Source of the DNA: Rhizohabitans arisaemae
Lineage (GTDB): Bacteria > Actinomycetota > Actinomycetes > Streptosporangiales > Streptosporangiaceae
Direction: 5' to 3'
Assembly (NCBI RefSeq): GCF_025996515.1
Contig: NZ_BLRH01000029.1
Span: forward strand, 124,001 to 188,000
Length of the DNA stretch: 64,000 nucleotides
The notes beneath the pieces were generated by a model, which was not told where the DNA came from, ran no database searches, and worked only from the letters and a program-made list of their open reading frames with translations. Each line of letters begins with the position of its first letter. The first letter of the stretch is position 1. The position numbers and the translations under genes are program-made. Positions 8,669 to 51,872 of the stretch are shown in pieces.

Positions 8669-9853
8669 GTGGAACGTCGGGTGTACGTCGCGGGCGTCGG
8701 GATGATCCCGTTCACAAAGCCCAGCGCCGGCCAGACCTATGACGTCATGGGAGAGCGCGCGCTGCACGAGGCGCTCAAGGACGCCGCGGTCGGGTACGAC
8801 CTCATCCAGCAGGCCTACGCCGGCTACGTCTACGGCGACTCGACCAGTGGTCAGAAGGTCGTCTACGGGGCGGGACTCACCGGGATCCCCGTCGTCAACG
8901 TCAACAACAACTGCTCCACCGGCTCGTCGGCCCTGTGGCTGGCCCGTCAGGCGGTGGAGTACGGCGCGGCCGAATGCGTCGTGGCCGTGGGCTTCGAGCA
9001 GATGAACCCCGGGGCGCTCCAGAACGTGTGGAACGACCGGCCGCTGGTGTTCGACCGGCACTCCGCGGCCATGTCCCTGGTCCAGGAACCGTCGGACGCG
9101 CCCCTCGCCGCGCAGTTCTTCGGCGGTGGCGGCGCCGCCCACACGGCGAAGTACGGCACGGCCCCGGAGACGTTCGCGAAGATCGCGGTGAAGGCGCGCC
9201 GGCACGCCGCGAACAACCCGTGCGCCGTCTTCCGGACACCCGTGACCGAGGAGGAGGTGCTCGCCTCACCGCACGTGTTCGGCCCCCTGACCAGGCTGCA
9301 GTGCTGCCCTCCCACCCGCGGGGCCGCGGCGGCCGTGCTCTGCGGCGAGGAGTTCGCGCGCAGGCACGGGCTGCGGACCGACGTGGTCATCCGGGCCCAG
9401 GCGCTGACCACCGACACGGCGAGCAGCTTCACCTCGGGCGACATGATGCGGGTCGTCGGTTACGACATGGCCCGCGAAGCGGCCAGGCAGGTGTACGAAG
9501 CCTCGGGAGTCGGTGCCGAGGACCTCGACGTGGTGGAACTGCACGACTGCTTCACCACCAACGAGCTGATCACGTATGAGGCCCTGGGCCTGACTCCGGA
9601 AGGCACCGCGGAACGGTTCGTGATCGACGGTGACAACACGTACGGGGGCCGGGTCGTCACCAACCCCTCAGGCGGTCTGTTGTCCAAGGGGCACCCGCTG
9701 GGCGCGACCGGGCTGGCCCAGTGCGCGGAGATCACCTGGCAACTGCGCGGCGAGGCGGCGGCCCGCCAGGTCGAGGACGCGCGTCTCGGCCTCCAGCACA
9801 ACGTCGGCCTCGGCGGGGCCTGCGTGGTCACCCTCTACGAGAAGGCGTCGTGA
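8669..9853 (+). CDS. SCP-x-type thiolase / lipid-transfer acetyl-CoA acetyltransferase
   Basis: This 394-residue enzyme should cleave a 3-ketoacyl-CoA with CoA in the last step of a beta-oxidation cycle. The nucleophilic cysteine is in NNNCSTGSS (Cys82), the active-site histidine is in LSKGHPLGATG, and the C-terminal cysteine is in LGGACVVT. These spacings fit the SCP-x thiolase branch, often used for sterol side chains and branched substrates. The GTG at 8669 is preceded by GAAGGGAGAA. It opens an operon and its stop overlaps the next start (GTGA). Confidence 0.9.
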   Translation: MERRVYVAGVGMIPFTKPSAGQTYDVMGERALHEALKDAAVGYDLIQQAYAGYVYGDSTSGQKVVYGAGLTGIPVVNVNNNCSTGSSALWLARQAVEYGAAECVVAVGFEQMNPGALQNVWNDRPLVFDRHSAAMSLVQEPSDAPLAAQFFGGGGAAHTAKYGTAPETFAKIAVKARRHAANNPCAVFRTPVTEEEVLASPHVFGPLTRLQCCPPTRGAAAAVLCGEEFARRHGLRTDVVIRAQALTTDTASSFTSGDMMRVVGYDMAREAARQVYEASGVGAEDLDVVELHDCFTTNELITYEALGLTPEGTAERFVIDGDNTYGGRVVTNPSGGLLSKGHPLGATGLAQCAEITWQLRGEAAARQVEDARLGLQHNVGLGGACVVTLYEKAS

Positions 9854-10290
9854 ACCTCGCGGTCGCGATCGGGATGACGTTCCCGCGCCACACGGTCGAG
9901 GTCGAGCGGGGCAGGCTCCGTTTCTACGCCGAAGTCATCGGGGAGGAGGCGCCGCGTTTCACCGACGTCGACGCCGCGGCCGAAGCCGGTTACCCCGATC
10001 TGCCGGTGCCTCCCGCGTTCCTGTTCTGCCTGGAGATGGCCCGGCCTGGAGATCGGTTCGGCTATCTCCAGCACCTTGGCATAGACCTCCGCAAAGTGCT
10101 TCACGGGGAGCAGCGTTTCGACTATCACGCCATGGCGTTCGCGGGCGACACGCTGATCTTCGACACCAGGATCACGGACGCCTACGAGAAGAAGGGCGGA
10201 GCGCTCGGCTTCCTGGTCCGCAGCACGCATGTGACCCGGGCGGGCGCTCCGATCGCCGATCTCACCTCCACCATCGTGGTGACGCGATGA
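9850..10290 (+). CDS. MaoC-like (FAS1-like) dehydratase domain protein
   Basis: This 146-residue hot-dog-fold protein begins at the GTG at 9850, overlapping the thiolase stop by four bases. It resembles the N-terminal half of two-domain MaoC enoyl-CoA hydratases (VEVERGRLRFYAEVIGE, then DLPVPPAFLFCLEM) and lacks the hydratase-2 catalytic motif. It probably pairs with the next protein, which has that motif, to form a heterodimeric enoyl-CoA hydratase, as known for mycobacterial steroid-pathway hydratases. The pairing is inferred from family knowledge and gene order. Confidence 0.8.
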   Translation: MNLAVAIGMTFPRHTVEVERGRLRFYAEVIGEEAPRFTDVDAAAEAGYPDLPVPPAFLFCLEMARPGDRFGYLQHLGIDLRKVLHGEQRFDYHAMAFAGDTLIFDTRITDAYEKKGGALGFLVRSTHVTRAGAPIADLTSTIVVTR

Positions 10291-10652
10291 AACTGGAGAT
10301 CCCGACGATCACCCGCACCACGCTGGCCTTGTACGCCGGTGCGTCCGGGGACCACAACCCGATGCACATCGACTTGGACGTGGCCCGGTCGGCAGGCCTG
10401 CCGGACGTGTTCGCGCACGGCATGCTCTCCATGGCCTATCTGGGTCGCCTGCTCACCGACTTGGTCGACCAGGGACGGATCCGTACGTACGCCGTCCGAT
10501 TCACCGCCGTCACACCGGTGCACGCCAAGCCCGTCTGCACCGCGGTCGTCACGAAAGTCGAGAACGGCCTCACCTATCTCGACCTGACGGTGACGACGGA
10601 GGAGGGCACGCAGACCCTCACCGGGCAAGCGATCATCGAGGGGGAGTTGTGA
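10287..10652 (+). CDS. MaoC-family enoyl-CoA hydratase, catalytic subunit
   Basis: This 121-residue hot-dog-fold protein carries the hydratase-2 motif YAGASGDHNPMHID with the catalytic Asp and His, followed by AHGMLSMAYLG. It should add water to a trans-2-enoyl-CoA. The ATG at 10287 overlaps the previous stop (ATGA), and its own stop overlaps the SDR start, so translation is coupled through the operon. It is likely to act as a dimer with the product of 9850-10290. Confidence 0.87.
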   Translation: MKLEIPTITRTTLALYAGASGDHNPMHIDLDVARSAGLPDVFAHGMLSMAYLGRLLTDLVDQGRIRTYAVRFTAVTPVHAKPVCTAVVTKVENGLTYLDLTVTTEEGTQTLTGQAIIEGEL

Positions 10653-11449
10653 AACTCGACGGAAGAGTGGCGATCATCACCGGTGGCGGCCGCGGCATCG
10701 GGCGGGCGATCGCCCTGAAGCTGGCCTCCGAAGGTGCCCGGGTCGTGGTCAACGACCTGGACGAGGAGCCCGCCGAGGAGACGGCGGAGGTCATTCGCGG
10801 CTCCGGCGGCGAAGCGTCCGTCTGCGTCGGCAGCGTCACCGCGGAGGACTTCGCCGGCCGGATCACGGCGGAGGCGGTGAAGCGTTTCGGCGGGCTGGAC
10901 ATCATCGTCAACAACGCCGGCTACACCTGGGACAACGTCGTCCAGAAGATGAGCGACGAGCAGTGGGACGCCATGCAGGACGTCCACGTCAAGGCGCCGT
11001 TCCGGATTCTGCGGGCCGCCCATCCGTTCATCAAGGCCAATCCAACCGACTATCACCGCAAAGTGGTGAACATCTCCTCGGCCTCCGGTCTCGGCGGGCA
11101 TCCCGGCCAGGCGAACTACTCCAGTGCCAAGGCCGCGGTCATCGGGCTCACCAAGGCGCTGAGCAAGGAGTGGGGGCGGTACAAGGTCAACGTCAACGCG
11201 GTGGCGTTCGGGCTCATCGAGACGCGGCTCACGGTGGCGGTGTCCGGGGAGGACACCATCCGGGTCGAGGGGCGCGAGATCAAGGTGGGGATCGGCACCG
11301 CGTTCCTCGACGCCGCTCAGTCCGCGATCCCCCTGGGCAGGGCGGGTACGGCGGCCGAGGCGGCCGGAGCGGTCTACCTGCTCTGCGTGCCGGAATCCGA
11401 CTACATCAGCGGCCAGGTTCTGCTCTGCGGCGGTGGCCTGTCCCTCTAA
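10649..11449 (+). CDS. SDR-family 3-hydroxyacyl-CoA dehydrogenase-like oxidoreductase
   Basis: This 266-residue short-chain dehydrogenase has the cofactor loop TGGGRGIG near residue 12, the NNAG motif, and the catalytic Ser with the YSSAK (YxxxK) pair. The acidic residue in VVVNDLDEE favours NAD over NADP. In this operon its likely role is oxidation of the 3-hydroxyacyl-CoA made by the hydratase, feeding the thiolase. The start GTG at 10649 overlaps the previous stop. It resembles FabG, but the catabolic context makes beta-oxidation more likely than synthesis. Confidence 0.88.
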   Translation: MKLDGRVAIITGGGRGIGRAIALKLASEGARVVVNDLDEEPAEETAEVIRGSGGEASVCVGSVTAEDFAGRITAEAVKRFGGLDIIVNNAGYTWDNVVQKMSDEQWDAMQDVHVKAPFRILRAAHPFIKANPTDYHRKVVNISSASGLGGHPGQANYSSAKAAVIGLTKALSKEWGRYKVNVNAVAFGLIETRLTVAVSGEDTIRVEGREIKVGIGTAFLDAAQSAIPLGRAGTAAEAAGAVYLLCVPESDYISGQVLLCGGGLSL

Positions 11450-41153: not shown

Positions 41154-44021
41154 TCAGTGCTGGCACCCGCAGATCGACGTGGTCAGGCGCCGGGCCATCG
41201 CGGTCACGTCGTCCCGGCTCAGGGAGGCGCCCACGGCGACCGCCTCCGTGTAGGTCTCCTCCGGCAGGGCGGAGCGTACCGAGAACGTGTTGCGCGGGCC
41301 GTCCAGCGGGTCCATGGCCTCGGGGGAGTAGCCGACCCGGCCGCCGATGGCCTCCACCGCGCCGAGCAGCATCGCGCCCTGCGTCGCCTGTCCCGCCATG
41401 CCGAGCGCGCCGGCCAGCACGTGCACGCCCGCGAGCCAGCTGGTCACGTCCAGTCCCCGGTCAAGCAGGATGATCATGTGTGCGGCCTGGCGGATCGCCT
41501 GGTTCGCGTCTCCCAGGTCCATGGACACCTTGGCGGCGATCCACCACGCCGAGACGGACGCCCACTCGTGCCCGCACAGATCGGCGATGGTGGCGGCCCG
41601 CATCAGCTGTTCGGACGCGAGCCGGAAGTCCCCGTTCGCCCTGGTGATCTGCCCGCGGATCATCATCGCCTCCGCCTCGATCCACGGCAGGCCGACGGAG
41701 GGGGCCAGCTGTGTCGCTTCGCGGATCAGCTCCTGGGCGCCTTCGGGGTCACCCGCGAGCTGCTGGAAGTAGGCCCGGTACGGGAGGGCCCGGGCGATGA
41801 CCTCGATCTCACCGGAGCGTTCGGCCGTCGTCGAGGCCAGGTTGGCGTCCTCGTTGCCGCCGAGCGCGTCCCCCACGAGGTAGCGCAGCATCGCCCGGCC
41901 CACCAGGACCTGCCCACGCTCGGGGTGCTCGGCGTCGGCGGAGCCGAGCGCCCGGTTCGCCCACCCGATGCCTTCGTGTCCCTGGCCGGTGCGATACCAG
42001 TACCAGGACAGCGACGCGATGAGGCGGAGTGCGGAGTCGACGTCGCCGGTCGACATGGCGTGGCTCAGCGCCGAGCGCATGTTGGCCTGTTCCTGCTGAA
42101 GCCGGCGCATCCAGATGTCGGCGTCGAACGATCGCATCCGGCGGCCGGCGGTGTCGGCCAGTGAGATCGCCCAGGCGAGGTGCCGGTCCGCCCAGCGGGG
42201 CCGCTCTTCCACGGTAAGCAGACGGTGCGCGTACTGTTTGATCGTTTCCAGGAGGCGGTAGCGGCGCGGGGTGTCCGCGGTCTCGGTGGTGACCAGCGAT
42301 TTGGCGATCAGCGCCCGCAGGTTCGGGAGGACTTTGGGCCGGTCGCTCAGCCACTGGGCCGCCTCCAGGTCGAAGCCTCCTTCGAACAGGGCGAGGCCGC
42401 CCAGGAGCTTCAGCTCGTCCTCGCTGAGGAGGCGGACGCTTGACTCGATCACCGCTTCCAGGTTGCGGTGCCGCGCCGGCGCCGTACGGGATCCCGAGGA
42501 CAGCAGGTCGAAGCGGTCGTCGAGGCCTTCGTGGATCTGCTCCAGGGACAGGATCCGCGTCTGGGCGGCGGCCAGTTCGATGGCGAGCGGAAGCCCGTCG
42601 AGGCTCCGGCAGATTTCGGCGATGAGCTCGCGTTCCGCGCGGCGGGGCCGCCATCCGGGCCGCAGGGAAACGGCTCGTTCGACGAACAGCTCGACGCCGG
42701 CGCCGTCCGGGTCCAGCGGCGGGAGTTCCCAGGTGACCTCTCCCGCGATCGCGAGGGCTTCCCGGCTGGTGGCGAGCAGCCGCAGGCCGGGGCAGCGCGT
42801 CACCAGCTCTTCGGCGTGGGCGGCGATCTCGTCCACGAGGTGCTCGCAGTTGTCCAGGACGAGGAGGATCTCGCGGTCGCCGATCGCGGCGGTCAGCTCG
42901 GCGGTGCTCTTGGCGAACGAGGCGCCTATGGTCGTACCGACGAGGTCGGGGAGGAGGGCGGGGTCGGTCAGGTCCGCGAGGAGTACGGCCCACGGGCCTT
43001 CGGCCACGGTGTACCCTCTGGCCGCCTCGAACGCGGTGCGCGTCTTGCCGGAACCGCCGGGGCCGGTGATCGTCACGATCCGGTGGGATGCCAGGAGGCC
43101 TTTGACCCCCGCCACGTCGTCGTCGCGGCCGATCAGTCTGGTCACCGGGGCCGGGATCGACGAGACCTGCGCACTCTTCGACGGGGCGGCGGGAGCGGGC
43201 CGGGGGACGACGGCCTGAACGCTTGTGCGCGGAGCGGCCCCGTCCAGTTCCGGATCCTGGTTGAGAACCGCGGTCTCCATGGCTCGCAGTCCGGGACCCG
43301 GGTCGACGCCCAGTTCTTCCAGCAGGTGTTCGCGGGCCGTGCGCAGCGCCGCCAGGGCGCCGCCTTGCCGCCCGCTCCGGTAGAGGGCGAGCGCGAGGAG
43401 CTCCCAGGCGCGCTCGGAGAGGGGGTGCTCGCGGACCAGCCCCTCCAGGTCGCTGAGGACCGAGGCGTCCACCCCCAGGGCGAGCCGGGCCGCCGCGTGG
43501 TCCTGGCGGGCGTCGAGGCGGGCGCTTTCCAGCCGGGCGATCTCGGCCGCCGCCACCTCACTGTCCTGCAGGTCGGCGTAGGCGGGTCCGCGCCAGAGGG
43601 CGAGCGCGGCCGACAGATGCTCCGCCGCCACCAGCGGTTCCTCTTTGAGCAGGCGGGAGCCGCGTTTGGCGAGTTCGGTGAAGCGCTCGGAGTCCACCGT
43701 CTCCGGCCGTACCCGCAGCGTGTAGCCGGGCCCTTGCCGGTCCACGATTCCGTGCGCGGTGCGGGGGGCGCGGTCCGGCTCAAGCGTTCGGCGCAGCCTG
43801 GTGACGTAGGAATGAAGGGTGCCGACCGCGGATTCGGGGGAACGCCCGTCCCAGATGGCCTCCACGATCCGATCGACGGTGACGACTCTGCCCTGTGCGA
43901 TGAGCAGGGTCGCGAGCAGCGCTTTGATCCTCGTCCCCCCGAGGTCGAGGTCGACGCCCTCCCGCGTCACGGTTAGCGGTCCAAGAACGGAAAAGTGAAG
44001 CTCGGCCCCCCTGGCATCCAC
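41154..44021 (-). CDS. AfsR-type SARP regulator (BTAD, NB-ARC-like ATPase, TPR), probable RiPP cluster regulator
   Basis: This 955-residue regulator has an N-terminal winged helix (LHFSVLGPLTVTREG, to about residue 100), a BTAD domain (to about 255), an ATPase with Walker A TGPGGSGKTRTAFEAA and Walker B ILLVLDNCEHLVDE, and a TPR-rich C-terminus. Such proteins activate antibiotic and RiPP clusters by binding direct repeats at promoters. It lies downstream of the C39 exporter on the same strand and is the only regulator next to the cluster. Compare the 770-residue relative at 2591, which lacks part of the C-terminus. Confidence 0.88.
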   Translation of the reverse strand: MDARGAELHFSVLGPLTVTREGVDLDLGGTRIKALLATLLIAQGRVVTVDRIVEAIWDGRSPESAVGTLHSYVTRLRRTLEPDRAPRTAHGIVDRQGPGYTLRVRPETVDSERFTELAKRGSRLLKEEPLVAAEHLSAALALWRGPAYADLQDSEVAAAEIARLESARLDARQDHAAARLALGVDASVLSDLEGLVREHPLSERAWELLALALYRSGRQGGALAALRTAREHLLEELGVDPGPGLRAMETAVLNQDPELDGAAPRTSVQAVVPRPAPAAPSKSAQVSSIPAPVTRLIGRDDDVAGVKGLLASHRIVTITGPGGSGKTRTAFEAARGYTVAEGPWAVLLADLTDPALLPDLVGTTIGASFAKSTAELTAAIGDREILLVLDNCEHLVDEIAAHAEELVTRCPGLRLLATSREALAIAGEVTWELPPLDPDGAGVELFVERAVSLRPGWRPRRAERELIAEICRSLDGLPLAIELAAAQTRILSLEQIHEGLDDRFDLLSSGSRTAPARHRNLEAVIESSVRLLSEDELKLLGGLALFEGGFDLEAAQWLSDRPKVLPNLRALIAKSLVTTETADTPRRYRLLETIKQYAHRLLTVEERPRWADRHLAWAISLADTAGRRMRSFDADIWMRRLQQEQANMRSALSHAMSTGDVDSALRLIASLSWYWYRTGQGHEGIGWANRALGSADAEHPERGQVLVGRAMLRYLVGDALGGNEDANLASTTAERSGEIEVIARALPYRAYFQQLAGDPEGAQELIREATQLAPSVGLPWIEAEAMMIRGQITRANGDFRLASEQLMRAATIADLCGHEWASVSAWWIAAKVSMDLGDANQAIRQAAHMIILLDRGLDVTSWLAGVHVLAGALGMAGQATQGAMLLGAVEAIGGRVGYSPEAMDPLDGPRNTFSVRSALPEETYTEAVAVGASLSRDDVTAMARRLTTSICGCQH

Positions 44022-44249: not shown

Positions 44250-46391
44250 TCAGCGGGAGGCCGCCTGGGCGGCGACCAGCGCGGCGTACTTGCCGCCCTC
44301 GGCCATGAGCCGATCGTGGGTGCCGCTCTGCACGATCCGCCCGGCGTCCAGCACCAGGATCAGATCGGCGTCCCTGATCGTGCTCAGCCGATGGGCGATC
44401 ACGATTCTGGTCTGCGAAAGCCAGCACAGATTGGATTCGATCGCCGCTTCGGTGACGCTGTCCAGGTTGCTGGTGGCCTCGTCGAGCAGGAGCACCTTCG
44501 GCTGGGACAGGACGGCGCGGGCCAGGGCCAGCCGCTGACGCTGACCGCCGGAGAGACCGCCGCCGTCGGTGAGCATGGTCTCGTACCCCATCGGCATCGC
44601 CATCACCTCGTCGTGCAAGGCGGCGAGGACGGACGCGTCCACGATGCGCTCCAGCGTGGCGTCGGGGTCGTTGAACGCGATGTTCTCCCGGATCGAGCCG
44701 TTGAACAGGGAAGGGTCCTGGGTGACCACCCCGAACTGGCGGCGGAGCGTGCGCAGGTTCAACTCCGGCAGCGGGACGCCGTCGTAGCGGATCTCGCCCT
44801 CCGTCGGGGTGTGCAGCGCCAGCAGCAGCTTGGCCAGCGTGCTCTTGCCCGAGCCCGAAGCCCCCACCAGGGCGACCTTCTGCCCCGGCCGGATGGAGAC
44901 CGAGACGTCGCGCACCGTCCAGGGCGCCCGCGGATCGTGGCGGAAACCGACCCGGTCGAGGTCGATGGCGCCACGCAGCCGCAGCACCTCGATGCCCTGG
45001 CCCGGTTCGGGGTCGGAGGCCAGGATGTCGGAGAGCCGGTCGAAGTGCGCACCCGCCTGCTGCAAGCTCTGCAGGCTGCTCATCAGCGAACTCAGCGGGG
45101 TCAGCGCGGCCAGCGCGACGGCGTTGAGCGCGATCAGCGTGCCCACGGTGAGCTGGCCCTCCAGCACCCGCCAGGTGCCGAGCCAGAGCAGTCCGAGCGG
45201 GGTGACCACCCGGATCGCGGACAGTGCCGCCTCCAGGACGCCGTGGGTGAGCCCGCCGCGGACGTCCGCGTTGAGCTGCCTGGAGAAGTGGGCCGACCAC
45301 TGATCCACCGCACGTTCCTCGGCGCCGGACGCCTTCAACGTCTCGATTCCGCTGATCGTCTGGATGAGGCTGCCCTGTGAGGCGGACAGGGCGGTCAGCT
45401 CCTGCCGGGCCAGGAGGTTGACCCGGCGGGCGGTGACCAGCAGCAGGAGTGACTGGAGCGCCACCACGCCGGTCAGGGCCAGCCCGAACACCGGATCCCG
45501 GAAGTAGACCAGCACCAGGTAGCCGATGGCGAGGGGCCCGTCCAGCAGCGCCGTGACGATCTGACCGGTGAGGATGTCCCGAAGGGCCGACACGCTGGTG
45601 GCCCTGGTCACCAGGTCGCCGGTGCCGCGCTGGGAGAAGTACCGGTAGGGCAGGGCCACCAGGTGGCCGACCACCCCCTCGGTGAGCTCCTGGTCGGCGC
45701 GGGCCCGTACCGCCACCAGCAGGGCGGCCCGCAGGTAGCCGATGACGAACTGCGCCACCCCGGCCAGCAGCACGGCCACGCCCAGCAGCGGCAGCAGGTC
45801 CACGGCGCGTTCCGGGACGATCGTGTCGATGAGCAGTTCGGCGAAGAACGGCAGGGCCAGCCCCAGCAGCTGCAGCAGGAGCGAGGCCGTGACGATCTGT
45901 GCGAAGAGGCCGCGGCGGCGCCGCACCAGGGTGTGCAGGAACTCCCGCCGCCAGGTGCTCGCCGCCGAGGACGAGCCGCGCTGGAACCCCTCGCTCGGCT
46001 CGAAGGCCAGCAGGACGCCGGTAAACCCCGCGCTGAACTCCGCCGCGGTCAGCTGCCGGCGCCCCTGACCGGGGTCGACCACGGTCACCCGGTCCGGCGA
46101 CCGGCGTTCGACCACCACGAAATGGCGGAACTCCCAGTGGACTATCGCCGGGAGCGGCACGCGAGCCAGATCCTCGGGAGCCAGGGAGAACGCCCGGGCC
46201 TTCAGGCCGTGCTCACGGGCACCCTCCAGGATGGCCCGTGCGGTCAGCCCGTCCCTGCCCACACCCAGCCGCTCCGACACCGCGTGCACGGTGGTGCGCT
46301 GCCCGTGGTGGCCGAGGACCATGGCCAGGCACGCGGCGCCGCACTCGGTGACCGTGTTCTGCAGGATGACGGGGACACGGCGGCGTCTCAC
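44250..46391 (-). CDS. C39 peptidase-containing ABC exporter (PCAT) for GG-leader peptides
   Basis: This 713-residue protein should cut leader peptides after GG and export the core. The N-terminal C39 peptidase has the oxyanion Gln11, catalytic Cys17 (QNTVTECGAAC), His90 (WEFRHFVVV) and Asp106 (VVDPGQG). Six membrane helices follow (about residues 160-440), then an ATPase with Walker A GASGSGKST, signature LSGGQRQR and Walker B LLLDEATSNLD. All three precursor peptides at 49126-49780 carry a GG site. The GTG start overlaps the stop of a 21-codon ORF. Confidence 0.93.
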   Translation of the reverse strand: MRRRRVPVILQNTVTECGAACLAMVLGHHGQRTTVHAVSERLGVGRDGLTARAILEGAREHGLKARAFSLAPEDLARVPLPAIVHWEFRHFVVVERRSPDRVTVVDPGQGRRQLTAAEFSAGFTGVLLAFEPSEGFQRGSSSAASTWRREFLHTLVRRRRGLFAQIVTASLLLQLLGLALPFFAELLIDTIVPERAVDLLPLLGVAVLLAGVAQFVIGYLRAALLVAVRARADQELTEGVVGHLVALPYRYFSQRGTGDLVTRATSVSALRDILTGQIVTALLDGPLAIGYLVLVYFRDPVFGLALTGVVALQSLLLLVTARRVNLLARQELTALSASQGSLIQTISGIETLKASGAEERAVDQWSAHFSRQLNADVRGGLTHGVLEAALSAIRVVTPLGLLWLGTWRVLEGQLTVGTLIALNAVALAALTPLSSLMSSLQSLQQAGAHFDRLSDILASDPEPGQGIEVLRLRGAIDLDRVGFRHDPRAPWTVRDVSVSIRPGQKVALVGASGSGKSTLAKLLLALHTPTEGEIRYDGVPLPELNLRTLRRQFGVVTQDPSLFNGSIRENIAFNDPDATLERIVDASVLAALHDEVMAMPMGYETMLTDGGGLSGGQRQRLALARAVLSQPKVLLLDEATSNLDSVTEAAIESNLCWLSQTRIVIAHRLSTIRDADLILVLDAGRIVQSGTHDRLMAEGGKYAALVAAQAASR

Positions 46392-46453
46392 CGGGCGGCC
46401 TCCGGCACGGGTACGGCCGAGACGGCCGGCGGGACGAGGACGGCGTCTCTCAT
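46388..46453 (-). CDS. 21-residue ORF coupled on both sides
   Basis: The ATG at 46453 overlaps the stop of the HlyD-like stub (ATGA) and its own stop overlaps the exporter start (GTGA). The peptide is MRDAVLVPPAVSAVPVPEAA plus a final Arg. No GG site, cysteines or membrane helix are present. It may only carry ribosomes from one gene to the next, or be a small protein of the export complex. The exact double overlap argues against chance. Confidence 0.5.
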   Translation of the reverse strand: MRDAVLVPPAVSAVPVPEAAR

Positions 46454-46839
46454 CGGCGCAGGTCCAGAAGGAGTACGGCCAGGATGGCGCCGGACGCCAC
46501 CAGTGCGGCCACCACGATCCACAGCAGCAGGAACGACGGACCGCTGATCATGAGCGGCATGCGGGTCGCGGCACGGGATCCGGCCGCGTGGCGGATCGCC
46601 TCCTCGCGGAAGAGACCTCCGGCCGGGCGCGCCACGGGGGAGGGGGCGGCAGGGGCCGCCTGCGGAGCGGGGCCGGCGGGCACGACCCGGTGGCCGGGAT
46701 CGGCCGGGGCGAACCGGGGAGGACCCGGTGGGGAGGTCTGGGGAGCGGGACCGGAAGGTGCGGCCTGGGCGTCGACCGGATGGCTCGCCCGGAACCGGGC
46801 CGGAGCCTGCATGGGATGGGTGCGGTCGTGGTCGGTCAT
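46450..46839 (-). CDS. Truncated HlyD-like membrane stub (exporter partner)
   Basis: This 129-residue protein has a long Pro/Ala-rich N-terminal region, then GLFREEAIRHAAGSRAATRM and one membrane helix (FLLLWIVVAALVASGAILAV) close to the C-terminus. The Phe-Arg-Glu-Glu-Ala lead-in before the helix resembles the beginning of HlyD-type membrane fusion proteins, but the whole extracytoplasmic barrel and hairpin are missing. Context next to the C39 exporter supports a partner role. The ATG at 46839 follows GAGG. Alternative: an unrelated single-pass protein. Confidence 0.6.
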   Translation of the reverse strand: MTDHDRTHPMQAPARFRASHPVDAQAAPSGPAPQTSPPGPPRFAPADPGHRVVPAGPAPQAAPAAPSPVARPAGGLFREEAIRHAAGSRAATRMPLMISGPSFLLLWIVVAALVASGAILAVLLLDLRR

Positions 46840-46920
46840 GGAACGGAACCTCAAAACGCTGGACGGGACAGTGGGATGGCCGGGTACCGTCCGTGGACGC
46901 CCCGATCGGGGGCTCCCCCA

Positions 46921-47050
46921 CCGGCGGCGGCGGAGGATCGGCATCGGAGGTTGGGGAGAGAATGCCGATCTCCGGCCGCCGCCGGTCCCCGTGGCGGCGG
47001 CGGAGAATCGGCTGTTAAGGGGGAGAACGCCGATCTCCTGCCGCCGCCGG
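46921..47050. repeat. Four alternating inverted copies of a 20-22-bp GC-rich repeat
   Basis: Copies A (46921-46942) and C (46993-47012) read GGCGGCGGCGGAG then G or A, then ATCGGC; copies B (46964-46985) and D (47029-47050) are their inverse, beginning GCCGATCTCC. A can pair with B and C with D, or B with C, so mutually exclusive hairpins can form. They fill most of the gap between the TIGR04500-like gene and the HlyD-like stub, all transcribed on the minus strand. Confidence 0.8.
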
Positions 47051-47096: not shown

Positions 47097-48092
47097 TTAG
47101 AGCCAGAACCACCTGATGCGCGCCTTGGCCCGCCGGTCCGCCAGGTAGGCGGTGAAGGCGGCCCGCCCCGCCGCGGCCAGCGCGACGGCGTCGGGCCGGG
47201 CCGGGCGACGTCGCCGTACGGCACCGAAGAGGAACGTGTCCCGGTACGGCACGGGGCCGACCGCCGAGCCCTCGGCGGCGTTTCGCAGCGGCTCGGGCAG
47301 TTCGGCCGCCATCCGGTCGGCCACCTGGACGGTGAGTTCACCGGAGAGGTCCGCGACCGCCGCGGCCACCGCCGAGAAGGGGTCGTCCTGGCCGGCCAGC
47401 TCGGCGAGACCGGACTCGGGGCCGAGCACCCACACGGCCGACACCTGGTCGAACTCCCGGATGTGATCGTCGAAGTAGGTTCGGGCCGACTCGCGCTCGA
47501 CGCGGTCCCGGAACCGGTTGGCCCTGGCCACGGAGTACAGGTGGTTCTGGTACGCCTCGGGGGTCAGGTTGACCTCTTCCAGCCACCGGGACATGGCGGC
47601 TCGGCTGTACAGGCCGCGCCGGCGGCGGTAGTCGTCGGAGGCCCGCTGCAGCTCCTCCGGGGAAGGTTCCGGCTCGCCTGCGGTCTCGAGCTGGAAGATG
47701 CAGTGGTCGATGAGGTCGTCGTGGACGGTGCGGTCACGCTCGGCGTGGGCCCGCAGGGTGAGCAGCGCCGTCTGGACGGAGATCTCCTCGTCGTCCACAC
47801 TGAGCACCTTGCTCGCCGCCCAGTGCGTCGAGTGGTCGATCGTCCACGGGACGCCGTCCTCGACGGACGCGGTGATCGCGACGGTGCCGCCGTCCGGATG
47901 GTCGACGAGCAGGTCGTAGTCGACCGTCGTGGTGCCCGGGCGGATGTCCGGGACGAGCTGGGCGCGGGATTCGGGGTGGGCGGCGCGCCAGGCGGCGACG
48001 GCCCGCTTCGCGTCCGGTACGCCTGTACGGTCGCGCGGCAGCCCGCGGAGCAGGTCCACCGCCGCGGCGAGGGTCTCCGGGTAGCCGGTCAC
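47097..48092 (-). CDS. Putative peptide maturation protein (TIGR04500 / PpiC-related)
   Basis: This 331-residue protein starts at a GTG overlapping the ATP-grasp stop. The N-terminal half has the pattern TVDYDLLVDHPDGGTVAITA; the C-terminal half has a SurA/PpiC-like helical section (YSRAAMSRWLEEVNLTPEAY, RDRVERESARTYFDDH) followed by LGPESGLAEL. This combination fits the TIGR04500 family, known only as a putative RiPP maturation protein beside ATP-grasp enzymes. It may bind the precursors or isomerise prolyl bonds. Soluble and cytoplasmic. Confidence 0.78.
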   Translation of the reverse strand: MTGYPETLAAAVDLLRGLPRDRTGVPDAKRAVAAWRAAHPESRAQLVPDIRPGTTTVDYDLLVDHPDGGTVAITASVEDGVPWTIDHSTHWAASKVLSVDDEEISVQTALLTLRAHAERDRTVHDDLIDHCIFQLETAGEPEPSPEELQRASDDYRRRRGLYSRAAMSRWLEEVNLTPEAYQNHLYSVARANRFRDRVERESARTYFDDHIREFDQVSAVWVLGPESGLAELAGQDDPFSAVAAAVADLSGELTVQVADRMAAELPEPLRNAAEGSAVGPVPYRDTFLFGAVRRRRPARPDAVALAAAGRAAFTAYLADRRAKARIRWFWL

Positions 48093-49081
48093 GCGGGCAC
48101 CCCCTGTACTGCCGGGCGCTCGTCGGCGGCCAAGCGCTCGGCGATCGCCTCGGAGATGGGCAGGCCGGTGACCTCCTCCACCCATCCCCACTGACCGTTG
48201 GGATTGAGTTCCAGGTACACGTACTCGCCTTCCGGGGTGAGGATCATGTCGATACAGCCGAAGTCCAACCCCAGGGACCTGACCAGCTCCACGCAGCGCC
48301 GCTCCAGATCCTTCGGCAGGTCGTAAACGCCGTACTCGGTGAAGGTGCCTTCGTAGTGCCGGAAGTCGTCGAGGGTGGCCCGTGATCCCTGAGAGTGGAT
48401 CTCCGCGGTGAAGACCTGGTCGCCGACGACGTTGATCCGCAGCTCCACGGCCTTGTCGACCCTGGGCTGGAGGATCACGGGTGCGTGGACGAGTCGGTGA
48501 CGACTGGTGAGGTGGCGCCGGGTGACCGCCGTGGTGTAGAAGGCGTTCCCGAACCCGTCGAAGTTGTAGGGGAGGGCCTCAACCTCCTTGGCCATGAGCC
48601 GGCCGCCCGCCTCGGACCACGCCACGGCCAGGCCCTCGGGGTCGTTGGTGACGGTGGTGTCGGGAACGGTGAAGCCGAGCTTGGCCGCGGCGGCAAGGTT
48701 GACCAGCTTGCTCTGGGTACGGATGAGTACGCCGAGCCGTGCCGGGAACCAGCGGGTTTCGAAGGTGTCCTCCCAGCCGTCGAGGAAGATCCGTCCGATC
48801 CTCTCCACATACCGCCGATAGCCGGGGTCCATGGTGTCCGACGCCGCGCGCGGATCGCGAGGACGCCGTATCCATACAGCGCTGACATCCGCTGAGTCGA
48901 TCTCCGCGTCCGCCGTCACCAGGGTGTGCCGCCACGCTCCGCCGACCAGCCGGGACGTCATCCGGGCGGAGACGGGGAAGTCGCCGGGATCCCAGCGATA
49001 GACCTCGATACCGCGTTCGAGGAGCTTACGGAGGACGAGGTCGACCGATCGGTCGTCCTCGCTGCTGAGTATCAGGATCAC
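48089..49081 (-). CDS. MvdD-like ATP-grasp peptide ligase (graspetide maturase)
   Basis: This 330-residue ATP-grasp enzyme should join Asp/Glu side chains to Ser/Thr or Lys of a precursor peptide (graspetide omega-ester or amide rings). It has VYRWDPGDFP near the N-terminus, the ATP-binding Lys segment GRLMAKEVEALPYN, ELRINVVGDQVFTAEIHSQ, and the hallmark metal motif YLELNPNGQWGWVEE near the C-terminus. The three precursor genes lie immediately upstream on the same strand, so they are its substrates. It could be the first modifying enzyme of the cluster. Confidence 0.9.
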   Translation of the reverse strand: MILILSSEDDRSVDLVLRKLLERGIEVYRWDPGDFPVSARMTSRLVGGAWRHTLVTADAEIDSADVSAVWIRRPRDPRAASDTMDPGYRRYVERIGRIFLDGWEDTFETRWFPARLGVLIRTQSKLVNLAAAAKLGFTVPDTTVTNDPEGLAVAWSEAGGRLMAKEVEALPYNFDGFGNAFYTTAVTRRHLTSRHRLVHAPVILQPRVDKAVELRINVVGDQVFTAEIHSQGSRATLDDFRHYEGTFTEYGVYDLPKDLERRCVELVRSLGLDFGCIDMILTPEGEYVYLELNPNGQWGWVEEVTGLPISEAIAERLAADERPAVQGVPA

Positions 49082-49125: not shown

Positions 49126-49290
49126 CTAGCTGACGTCCCTGCAGCTGTCCGGCTGACCGTTGTTGATCGAGGTGCAGTACTTTCCGGTCGCGGGCTCCAT
49201 CCCCGGACGGCCGCCGATGACGGTATCGAGGGCGTCGTCGGTGAGCTCGAAAGCCGCAGCGTCGTCGAGGTCGTCGATGCGAATGGTCAT
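49126..49290 (-). CDS. RiPP precursor peptide 1
   Basis: This 54-residue peptide has the leader MTIRIDDLDDAAAFELTDDA ending in VIGG (cut after residue 27), then the core RPGMEPATGKYCTSINNGQP followed by DSCRDVS. The leader matches the double-glycine type cut by C39 exporters and is nearly the same in peptides 2 and 3. The core has two cysteines, four Ser/Thr and acidic residues suited to ring formation by the ATP-grasp enzyme. No Trp is present. It is the last of three tandem precursor genes. Confidence 0.9.
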   Translation of the reverse strand: MTIRIDDLDDAAAFELTDDALDTVIGGRPGMEPATGKYCTSINNGQPDSCRDVS

Positions 49291-49341
49291 TTTCTTGATT
49301 CCTGTCTCGCGTCGTTGTCGGGGGGCCGGCTTGGGATGGGA

Positions 49342-49362
49342 TGGCACCGCGAGACGGTGCCA
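49342..49362 (-). promoter_or_regulatory. Hairpin between precursor genes 2 and 1
   Basis: TGGCACCG (49342-49349) and CGGTGCCA (49355-49362) form a perfect 8-bp stem with a five-base loop, starting 10 bases after the stop of precursor 2 on the minus strand. It may end or stabilise the upstream message, setting the ratio of peptides to enzymes. Confidence 0.65.
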
Positions 49363-49372
49363 CCCCACGTGA

Positions 49373-49537
49373 TCAGCCCTGCCAGTCCCGGCAGTTGTCC
49401 GACTGGCCGTTGGTGGCGGCGCACACGATCATGCTCGGGCCCAGCATGCCATCACGACCGCCGATGACGGTGTCCAAGGCGTCGTCGGTGAGCTCGACAG
49501 CCGCAGAGGCGTCGAGGTCGTCGATACGAACGGTCAT
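49373..49537 (-). CDS. RiPP precursor peptide 2
   Basis: This 54-residue peptide has the leader MTVRIDDLDASAAVELTDDA ending in VIGG, then the core RDGMLGPSMIVCAATNGQSD followed by NCRDWQG. Cysteines and the NGQxDxCRD pattern align with precursor 1, so the two are sequence variants of one scaffold. It is the only one of the three cores with a tryptophan, which matters if the radical SAM enzyme is a Trp methyltransferase. The frame is short but is backed by its near-identical leader. Confidence 0.9.
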   Translation of the reverse strand: MTVRIDDLDASAAVELTDDALDTVIGGRDGMLGPSMIVCAATNGQSDNCRDWQG

Positions 49538-49627
49538 TGGTTCACGTTCCTTTGTGGTATGGGTTTCGCGCGGGCCGGTCCTCGCCGGACTGACTCGCGG
49601 TGAAATCGGCGACTTGACGGAGACGTA

Positions 49628-49780
49628 TCAGATGCCGGAAATCACGGGGTCGTAGCATCCGGGCGGGCCGCCGAGCGGGGTCTTCGGCTGCTGAGGCTCG
49701 CGGCCGCCGATCACAACGTCCAGGTTGTCGTCGGTGAGCTCTACGGCGCTGTCGCTGAGGTCGTCGATGCGAATAGTCAT
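49628..49780 (-). CDS. RiPP precursor peptide 3
   Basis: This 50-residue peptide has the leader MTIRIDDLSDSAVELTDDNL ending in VIGG, then a different core, REPQQPKTPLGGPPGCYDPV followed by ISGI. The core is Pro-rich with one Cys and lacks the two-cysteine pattern of the others, so it may yield a distinct product. AGGAG precedes the ATG. It is first in order on the minus strand, nearest the radical SAM gene. Confidence 0.9.
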   Translation of the reverse strand: MTIRIDDLSDSAVELTDDNLDVVIGGREPQQPKTPLGGPPGCYDPVISGI

Positions 49781-50147
49781 TCTTTCGAACTCCTTTTTTC
49801 TGCGGATTTCTCGCGCAAAGGAAATTCTCGACGACCGGACTTGCGGTGAACTTGGCCCTTGCTTGGGGCCACTTGAAGTCACTTGAAAGCGATTGCCACG
49901 GCGCATTGTCCAGGTCAGGTGGTTGGCCTGGAAATCGATTGCCGCGCAGGCGGTGACAACTTCCGATTATGGTTGAGGATACGTCCGTCATGACGATTGT
50001 CAATGATTGCTGTTTCCCCGACCGTAATTCCCTCGCCGATTCGGCGCCAAATAGGGATGTTTTTGCGGACCATGGATGCCGCAGTCAGCTGGTTCGGCGC
50101 GCCCCCGAATGAACGGGCGGGACCGGGTACGGACCCGCCCGCGGTGC
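49781..50147. other. 367-bp gap between radical SAM gene and precursors
   Basis: No gene is supported. The stretch is richer in A/T than its surroundings and should hold a promoter for the precursor genes. GATTGCC recurs at about 49890 and 49937 (followed by ACGGCGCA and GCGCAGG). No precise promoter can be called. Confidence 0.4.
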
Positions 50148-51872
50148 TCAGTTCGGTGGGAAGGCGCTGGTGCTGGTGCCGCTCATGATGGCTTCCCGGT
50201 CTCGCCAATGCGCCCAGAACGCCCCGGTGTAGCCCTTCCGCTTGAGGCTGGTGAGGAAGGGGTTGTCGGCGTAGTTGTTGTCGTTCTCGCTGCTTCCGTC
50301 GATCGTCGGGAGCATGACCCGGTAGTACTCGGATTTGGGGATACGGTCCCAGAGGAAGTCGACGGAGGCGCGCCAGATTCCGTTCGGACTGTTCACGGTC
50401 GCCGGGTCCTCGGGGAGATCCGGCGAGAAATAACAGACCAGCCGGAAATCCCCCGACTCATCGAACATGAACTGCCGTTCGTACTCGACCGGGCCGCTGC
50501 ATTGGGCCATCGGCTTCAAGACGATCGGGTCGACGGCGTTGTTGGACTGGAGTCCGGGGACCGTACGGACTCCGTCGCATTCCCGGGCCAGCCGGATCGC
50601 CAGGTCGGTGTAGGGGAACAGGCGCAGGCCCAGGCTGAAGCCGGTGACCGTGGCGTCCAGCTCCATCAGGGTGTCCACGCACGCGCGCATGGTCTCCTGG
50701 GTCTCGCCGGGCATCCCCAGGAGGGCTTCGACCATGGTGAGCATGCCGTACCGGTGGCTCAGCTCCACCAGGCGCACCGTGTCCGCGAAGTCGTAGTACT
50801 TCGTGCCCTTCTTGGTGACCTTCCATCCGTCGAGCATCTCGGGGCGCACATGGTCCGTGCCGACGTTCACCCCCGCGCATCCCGCCCCCGCCAGGAGCTC
50901 CGCGAACTCCTCGTCGAACGGGGACGGCTGACAGTAGATCCAGAGCCGGAGGCGGTGCAGCGAGGTGGAGACGTCGCGGTCCTTACGCCGGACGATCTCC
51001 CGGAGGAGCTCCTTGGTGTGCGCGATCGCCAGGTTGAACTCGCTGTCCGTCGTGTGCAGGTCGTGGATCCCCTGGTCGGTCAGGGACTCCATCTCGTCCA
51101 CCACGGAGGCGATGCTCCGCCGGGTGAGCCGGGTGCCCTTGGCGTCCGGCTCCACGCACTGCGTGCACCGGTAGACGCAGCCGTTCTTGGTGAGGATGCT
51201 GCCCAGGCCGCCCATCCGGTAGTACGCGAGGTTGTCGACCCGGTACGGCACGCCCGATCGCCGGGTGTAGGGGCGTTCGGCGTCCACCTGCCAGGCCCGG
51301 CTCTCGTTGTGGCCGGTGGGAAAAGGCAGGGCGGCGGCACCGTCGGAGGGGCGCGCGCCCAGCGCGGGCGGCGGCACCCGTACCACCTGCCCGGAGCCCC
51401 GGTTGACGAGGAGCCCGGGGATGCCGTCGGCGGAACAGCCTGCGTGCAGGGCCTCCGCCAGGTCGCAGACGATGTTCTCCCCGGGTCCTTTCACCCCGAA
51501 GTCGACGCCGAGGTAGTCGACGAGGGCGAAGGGCATCGTGGAGAACCCGACGCCTCCGGCGACGACGGGGGAGTCGGTCAGTCCGCGGATCTCATCGATG
51601 ATCGACTTGTACAGGTTGACGAAGGGGCGCTGTTCGAAGGCGTACACGGTGTCGGTGTTGCGGCAGGTGACGCCGACCAGGAGCGGTCGGTTGCCGTGGA
51701 AGTAGGCGCGCAGCACCTGCCGCCAGTCGTCCAGGTGAAACGTCAGATCCAGCACGTGCGGTTCGAAGCCGGCGGCCTCAAGCGCGGTGGACAGCACGTC
51801 CAATGCGTAGGGGGCGATGGGAGGGTGTACCTGGTTGGGGTTGACCAGCACAACAACGCCTTTGCATTGCAT
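50148..51872 (-). CDS. Cobalamin-binding radical SAM enzyme (TsrM/class B methyltransferase-like)
   Basis: This 574-residue enzyme has an N-terminal B12-binding-like domain (VVVLVNPNQVHPPIAPYALD, then LVGVTCRNTDTVYAFEQ and AGGVGFST) and a radical SAM barrel with the CxxxCxxC iron-sulfur motif at Cys232, Cys236 and Cys239 (NGCVYRCTQC). The N-terminal domain is similar in style to TsrM, which methylates tryptophan C2, and to PhpK. It likely methylates a carbon centre in the RiPP core. GGAGAG precedes the ATG. It is first in the cluster; the exact reaction is unproven. Confidence 0.87.
   Translation of the reverse strand: MQCKGVVVLVNPNQVHPPIAPYALDVLSTALEAAGFEPHVLDLTFHLDDWRQVLRAYFHGNRPLLVGVTCRNTDTVYAFEQRPFVNLYKSIIDEIRGLTDSPVVAGGVGFSTMPFALVDYLGVDFGVKGPGENIVCDLAEALHAGCSADGIPGLLVNRGSGQVVRVPPPALGARPSDGAAALPFPTGHNESRAWQVDAERPYTRRSGVPYRVDNLAYYRMGGLGSILTKNGCVYRCTQCVEPDAKGTRLTRRSIASVVDEMESLTDQGIHDLHTTDSEFNLAIAHTKELLREIVRRKDRDVSTSLHRLRLWIYCQPSPFDEEFAELLAGAGCAGVNVGTDHVRPEMLDGWKVTKKGTKYYDFADTVRLVELSHRYGMLTMVEALLGMPGETQETMRACVDTLMELDATVTGFSLGLRLFPYTDLAIRLARECDGVRTVPGLQSNNAVDPIVLKPMAQCSGPVEYERQFMFDESGDFRLVCYFSPDLPEDPATVNSPNGIWRASVDFLWDRIPKSEYYRVMLPTIDGSSENDNNYADNPFLTSLKRKGYTGAFWAHWRDREAIMSGTSTSAFPPN

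Follow-up and report, generated by a model that had tools for sequence, protein, structure and literature searches.

Graspetides are a little-studied kind of ring-linked peptide. The closest characterised system to the locus described here is that of rosaritide, a group 21 graspetide encoded by the mir cluster of Micromonospora rosaria, in which the synthetase MirB is inactive on the precursor unless its TIGR04500 partner MirC is present (PMC13097080). In the accessible text of that paper rosaritide is described as the first graspetide shown to need such a partner, and no second TIGR04500-dependent graspetide was found in the literature searched. The same text reports a SurA-like domain in MirC, with 3RGC as the nearest characterised structure, and the rings S8-D22, S9-D26 and T11-D24 in rosaritide, with S8, S9 and T11 as donors and D22, D24 and D26 as acceptors; a truncated rosaritide gave no significant inhibition of four bacteria (PMC13097080).

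In the available part of PMC8939145, TIGR04500 figures in the list of families associated with graspetide loci, and conserved Cys are noted for many of the new precursors. Disulfides are mentioned for a Cys removed from ThfA, for engineered lasso chimeras and for cyclised proteins (accessible text of PMC13003496 and PMC12291112), and an engineered lasso-graspetide is cited in the accessible text of PMC13352647. The literature search, with most subscription papers outside its scope, found no report of core Cys joined by a natural disulfide in a bacterial graspetide.

We analysed a 64,000-nucleotide stretch of Rhizohabitans arisaemae DNA (the window) and consider it fairly probable, judging by sequence, that it holds a partner-protein-type graspetide cluster whose product or products are beta-hairpins that carry one or two ester rings flanked by a disulfide. 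Its three paralogous precursors could give up to three products. The system is of a known kind, its two-Cys core appears to be new, and a hairpin combining ester and disulfide is the best-supported predicted structure.

Organization of the gene cluster

The cluster lies on the minus strand, in the transcription order P1, P2, P3, synthetase, TIGR04500 partner, Pro-rich protein and C39 transporter, with the following features.

50148-51872, minus strand: TsrM-like tryptophan C2-methyltransferase, full-length (TIGR04428, 1039 bits)
49976..50003, minus strand: promoter-like site TTGACA-16-TATCCT, upstream of P1 (consensus scan, 10/12 match)
49628..49780, minus strand: P1 graspetide precursor, core REPQQPKTPLGGPPGCYDPVISGI, one Cys, Pro-rich (50 aa ORF, leader common to P2/P3)
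49373..49537, minus strand: P2 graspetide precursor, core RDGMLGPSMIVCAATNGQSDNCRDWQG, two Cys (54 aa ORF)
49126..49290, minus strand: P3 graspetide precursor, core RPGMEPATGKYCTSINNGQPDSCRDVS, two Cys (54 aa ORF)
48089..49081, minus strand: graspetide synthetase, ATP-grasp ligase, 330 aa, DFR motif (PF21068, 60 bits, cut-off 27)
47097..48092, minus strand: TIGR04500 partner protein, MirC-like, 331 aa, GTG start (244.9 bits, cut-off 180)
46450..46944, minus strand: small Pro-rich protein, 164 aa, hydrophobic C-terminal stretch (no family above cut-off)
44250..46391, minus strand: peptidase-containing ABC transporter, C39 peptidase (PF03412, PF00664 and PF00005 above cut-off)
41154-44021, minus strand: large AfsR/SARP-type regulator with BTAD domain, downstream of the exporter (family profile)

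The three precursor ORFs jointly cover exactly 49126-49780, and each has an ATG start with a purine-rich stretch immediately upstream. The promoter-like site is predicted by consensus only, shuffled sequences averaging 0.1 such sites. The GTG start of the partner overlaps the synthetase stop by four bases, as it does in the related locus L031. In the related clusters L032 and L033 a histidine kinase and a LuxR-type response regulator lie nearby, versus the AfsR/SARP-type regulator of the window. The TIGR04428 cut-off, passed by the gene upstream of the promoter-like site, is passed in 3/338 genomes of the window's family, the window's own included.

Synthetase, partner protein and exporter

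The synthetase contains an MvdD-type pre-ATP-grasp domain (PF21068). It also matched TIGR04187 (232.5 bits), TIGR04185 (209.8 bits) and TIGR04184 (200.8 bits), all below the curated cut-offs (350 for TIGR04187). The solved structures matching it best were those of graspetide ligases, with 5IG8, 7M4S, 5IG9, 7MGV and 9BOU as solved relatives; we take the first three to be microviridin-type synthetases. With this ligase adjoining precursors that combine a conserved leader with a core carrying Ser/Thr/Lys and Asp/Glu, the locus can be assigned to the graspetide class by its gene content.

The TIGR04500 profile was run on 47097-48152. A predicted model of the partner (mean pLDDT 83.4) retrieved SurA-like chaperones, with 3RGC (Cj1289) first at E 5e-7, on which the model superposes loosely (TM 0.25-0.31, rmsd 13.6). 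The transporter scored 620.6 bits against TIGR03796, below the cut-off of 853.3, and by family it is predicted to cleave the GG leader and export the peptide. Relatives of the Pro-rich protein scoring at least 40 bits by phmmer were present in L030, L032, L041, L055, L063, L069 and L076, matches that are weak and of low complexity; its gene sits immediately before the exporter gene.

Like the rosaritide system, the window holds a precursor, a synthetase, a TIGR04500 partner with a SurA-like fold, a C39 transporter and a GG leader. Given the same gene set and the 3RGC-like partner, the cluster would be expected to work like that of rosaritide.

Precursor cores and their relatives

The leaders of P1-P3 close with VIGG and are identical at 21/26 (P1/P2), 21/26 (P1/P3) and 23/27 (P2/P3) aligned residues; a search of the window's own genome with P3 returned only the P1, P2 and P3 copies at E 0.001 or better. 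The cores of P2 and P3 carry two Cys 10 and 11 positions apart (Cys12-Cys22 in P2, Cys12-Cys23 in P3), just as the initial annotation had described for its first two cores, which in plus-strand order are P3 and P2. Its third core, P1, is indeed Pro-rich with one Cys, but is not simply unlike the others: Thr8 is retained, and so is a C-x-D whose Cys and Asp fall in the columns of Cys2 and of the final Asp of the two-Cys cores. The GGPPGCYD of P1 also resembles [DN]PPG[VYI]C cores in L101, L102, L103, L106 and L108, from a distant TIGR04500-linked branch, a likeness that may reflect convergence or an old paralogue.

Eight aligned partner proteins, used as the query against genome contigs, identified 50 related loci (L030-L079) in Streptosporangium, Nonomuraea, Microbispora, Actinomadura and related genera. 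A synthetase was present in 44/50, an exporter match above 300 bits in 34/50 and accepted precursors in 41/50; none was accepted in L047, L052, L053, L061, L062, L067, L068, L070 and L072. No exporter match was found in L031 or in the 11 kb region L134. A P3 search of 341 genomes of the window's family matched 13 at E 0.01 or better, its own genome included. Precursors in L030, L031 and L032, loci of Microtetraspora niveoalba, Spongiactinospora sp. TRM90649 and Streptosporangium saharense, share the leader of the window and have an NG[QE]-P-D-T-C-x-D core; genes for a synthetase and a TIGR04500-like partner lie next to them. Leader conservation, on which the initial annotation had staked its reading, is seen in alignments of the relatives' precursors, and its proposal of a duplicated graspetide precursor set served by one enzyme kit is supported. 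Seven relatives also have two or three cores per cluster (L032, L041, L049, L101, L106, L108 and L113).

The six cores formed by P2, P3 and the closest cores from L030, L031 and L032 are called group A here; those of the relatives and of the sister locus L134 are as follows.

L030, group A core: RDMIGPSPKVCTSINNGQPDTCWDLS
L031, group A core: RPPMTPPSPRVCTSINNGQPDTCWDFS
L032, group A cores: RPPMTPPSPRVCTSINNGQPDTCWDPQG and RPTSAPPSPKVCTSVNGEPDTCSDYPY
L134, Cys-less sister core: REPMTPPTPKLSSSLGNGTRGDPLPDTFT

The L134 core has Ser in place of Cys1 and no later Cys, and keeps Thr8 and two Asp four apart. Genes for DsbA-like, VKOR, thioredoxin/AhpC-like and DsbD-type proteins flank this Cys-less cluster (L134:1-1195, 9695-11001); they may be housekeeping genes. 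Group B (L033-L037, L124 and L129) comprises seven distinct single-Cys cores, with two Asp three apart in 7/7, and group C comprises nine loci with eight distinct cores, whose two Cys have 7 to 15 residues between them. Other core types, for example those of SWYIGGKPAEW and SAWTLDDVPYEWW type, lack Cys. A single-Cys family of RCYHTNGTEGRPSDGWVSDY type occurs in L065, L066, L073 and L079 (Nonomuraea and [Actinomadura] parvosata).

A tree of 64 synthetases was built by a 'quick' method with no bootstrap (support figures starred as given), leaving out the four duplicate rows L114, L116, L136 and L137; 4/64 rows lack a core label, each locus is labelled by its core with most Cys, and L124 and L129 belong to group B by core only, outside the tree. 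The window grouped with L030, L031 and L032 (99*), then with L134 (81), then with group B (99*, ten rows), and group C formed a separate 99* clade. The 60 labelled rows comprise 24 with no Cys, 19 with one and 17 with two, and Cys number requires 12 changes on the tree, versus 28.3 on average after shuffling. Single Cys occur in L110 and L115b of a distant clade, versus two in L118 and in a core of L113, so that the group as a whole does not keep to pairing.

The Cys pair and the proposed product

All six group A cores, P2 and P3 included, carry Ser/Thr at C1-4 and Asp at both C2-2 and C2+2. In group C, 9/9 loci carry Ser at C1-4, with Ser/Thr occupying C1+1 and Asp/Glu occupying C2-1. Inside the Cys pair, 13/14 distinct cores have a donor and an acceptor at matching offsets of +1/-1 or +2/-2, P2 being the exception; shuffling the loop residues only gave a mean of 1.5 and a maximum of 7, with 0/5000 as high as 13/14, in a test whose offsets were picked after inspecting the sequences and whose shuffles ignore kinship. 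Given this kinship, the count rests on two clades and not on fourteen events. Among ten representatives that we chose ourselves, 9/10 had matched donor-acceptor offsets, versus a shuffled mean of 1.1. In L134, the nearest Cys-less sister, both Cys are missing. Ala occupies the two P2 positions that are Thr-Ser in most group A cores, so the donor of P2 would have to be Ser8, Thr15 or Ser19.

An AlphaFold2 model of P3 (seven sequences), of low confidence (pLDDT 59.9, pTM 0.19), places strands at core positions 10-13 and 22-25. If these strands pair end to end, C12 faces C23, S14 faces D21 and K10 faces D25. The matched spacing is the pattern that consecutive cross-strand rungs of a hairpin would give. 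The disulfide that the initial annotation had raised as a possibility thus gains indirect support from the conserved core positions, the matched offsets and the low-confidence P3 model. Counting against a disulfide, no DsbA-like, VKOR or DsbD-type family was found among the scanned neighbours of the two-Cys loci L030-L032 (among 39 ORFs of five relatives). That the disulfide directly replaces the Ser-Glu pair found in SW..GKPAEW cores was also considered and is not supported: two MAFFT runs place the Ser of those cores one after or three before Cys1.

From these observations and from the MirB/MirC system, we propose that the three precursors are transcribed and translated and that their leaders recruit the synthetase-partner complex, upon which the synthetase would form omega-ester links between the side chains of Ser/Thr and Asp. 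The likeliest ring in P3 and most close relatives would form between the second residue after Cys1, a Ser, and the second before Cys2, an Asp; another ring may connect Ser/Thr8 with the Asp two after Cys2. The C39 transporter would then cut after GG and export the peptide, and the disulfide would close outside the cell, Cys12-Cys23 in P3 or Cys12-Cys22 in P2, as the next rung of the same beta-hairpin. With Thr8 but only one Asp in its second half, and with a single Cys, P1 would form at most a Thr8-Asp18 ring, with no internal disulfide expected; its lone Cys counts against strict pairing. Cut after GG, the cores have calculated neutral monoisotopic masses of 2882.2745 (P3), 2881.2364 (P2) and 2505.2685 (P1) when linear; two dehydrations and a disulfide would give 2844.2378 for P3 and 2843.1996 for P2, and one dehydration 2487.2580 for P1.

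Alternative roles of the Cys

In group B the single Cys occupies the Ser/Thr8 column, whether counted from the conserved Ser pair or in both MAFFT runs, which is the S/T-to-C column expected of a nucleophile, and these cores are candidates for a natural thioester graspetide. Were Cys the graspetide donor in the two-Cys cores as well, a natural thioester would join Cys12 to an Asp, nested as in fuscimiditide, with the second Cys free or rearranging the thioester; the spacing of four shared by positions 8/12 and acceptors 21/25 would suit such nesting, and synthetases can form thioesters with substituted donors (accessible text of PMC13097080 and PMC12291112). However, a thioester needs one Cys only, and both Cys co-occur in group A (6/6) and group C (9/9) and are both missing from L134; moreover, no natural thioester graspetide was found in the accessible parts of the graspetide literature consulted. 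Since group B suggests that Cys can occupy a donor position, the thioester retains some probability, and for the two-Cys cores we regard it as unlikely.

It is distinctly unlikely that the Cys stay reduced and either bind a metal or serve dimerisation, with only the ester rings mattering. Unpaired Cys are tolerated in the single-Cys cores (P1, group B and group F), and type II pamtides bind zinc by Cys, though by four Cys in a zinc ribbon, unlike here (accessible text of PMC10787088). Reduced Cys would not predict the matched donor and acceptor offsets inside the pair, and each core offers metal only two Cys.

A decayed locus, or a dead paralogue in P1, with no mature peptide, would explain why P1 lacks most of the conserved core positions; in a relative, region L135, from which the group B precursor L124 comes, the matches to synthetase and partner are broken across frames, through either a decayed copy or a sequencing error. 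In the window, by contrast, the genes are open and the four-base overlap of synthetase and partner is that of L031, and we regard this reading as highly unlikely.

A thioether, the other linkage that the initial annotation had allowed for, would be made by a radical SAM enzyme, and a B12-binding radical SAM gene (50148-51872) does lie directly upstream of the precursors; it gives a weak match to TIGR03975 (RiPP radical SAM C-methyltransferase; 18 bits versus a cut-off of 282), and PMC8939145, in its accessible part, proposes radical SAM thioethers for conserved Cys of graspetide precursors generally. However, this gene matches a tryptophan 2-C-methyltransferase (TIGR04428, 1039 bits; 6WTE, 855 bits), no SPASM model is among the 22 families listed for it, and it has no phmmer relative in the 50 loci L030-L079 or in 24 further regions (some duplicates). 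The nine window proteins scanned include no second radical SAM enzyme, and no SPASM-type maturase was found conserved with the precursor. The neighbour scan covered 39 of 51 ORFs picked around L030-L033 and L134, the remaining 12 comprising synthetases, partners and exporters, one precursor frame, one antisense frame and L033:1-907. The 39 include no radical SAM family, and no peptide-modifying family, radical SAM or other, is common to the five loci. A thioether is therefore extremely improbable, and the upstream gene was rejected as its source, being TsrM-like and not found with the cluster elsewhere.

Comparison with known graspetide systems

The ester and disulfide hairpin that we favour may belong to a wider natural class, a reading that we put forward tentatively and with some doubt, in which a disulfide and omega-esters form consecutive rungs of one hairpin, the disulfide takes the place of rosaritide's central Thr-Asp ester, and the donor at position 8 can be either Ser/Thr (ester) or Cys (a possible natural thioester, as in group B). 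If so, evolution would swap one cross-link chemistry for another at set positions while keeping one synthetase-partner pair, related enzyme pairs would handle cores ranging from three esters, via ester and disulfide, to single small hairpins, and the window and its relatives would be a ready test set for the exchange of cross-link positions and chemistries. An ester/disulfide hybrid could also be useful in peptide design, as reduction would open the disulfide and leave the esters in place.

The microviridin core motif is TxKxPSD. The window resembles the microviridin system (MdnB/MdnC) in that its best solved synthetase matches include 5IG8, 7M4S and 5IG9, whereas its precursors have no TxKxPSD core (P3 reads TGKY and then CTS; P1 and P2 have no such block) and the window includes a TIGR04500 partner. 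Fuscimiditide has a stem-loop shape, to which the predicted hairpin would be similar. As in fuscimiditide and the graspimiditides (group 13), there are two predicted acceptor Asp four apart (Asp18 and Asp22 in ThfA, according to the accessible text of PMC13003496); unlike the graspimiditides, no isoaspartyl methyltransferase family was found among the nine window proteins scanned, and a Cys pair is added here. The stryphnines, sponge knottins, are likewise ribosomal and bear a Ser-Glu side-chain ester as well (accessible text of PMC13418204), but they are of sponge origin, with no relation in sequence or enzymes shown to the window system.

The comparison with rosaritide can be carried to single residues. 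A rosaritide-type core is encoded in region L109 beside a TIGR04500 gene (LPRNGAGSSKTIDDIPGGGRPDTDTDFD) and fits the residue numbering in the accessible text of PMC13097080; relative to this system, the window synthetase is 39% identical (two-sequence BLASTP, E 8e-67) and the partner 29%. Aligned by eye with one gap, the L109 core and P3 correspond at S8/T8, K10/K10, I15/I15 and PDTDTD/PDSCRD. Unlike rosaritide, P1-P3 have no SSxT...DxDxD pattern, P2 and P3 lack the S8-S9-x-T11 donor block, and these two belong to a set of three precursors. Where rosaritide has D22-x-D24-x-D26, P2 and P3 read D-x-C-x-D, with Cys in place of the middle acceptor. The positions of rosaritide's T11-D24 and S9-D26 sum to 35 each, and the pairs that would face each other in P3 if its strands pair end to end, C12/C23, S14/D21 and K10/D25, have the same sum.
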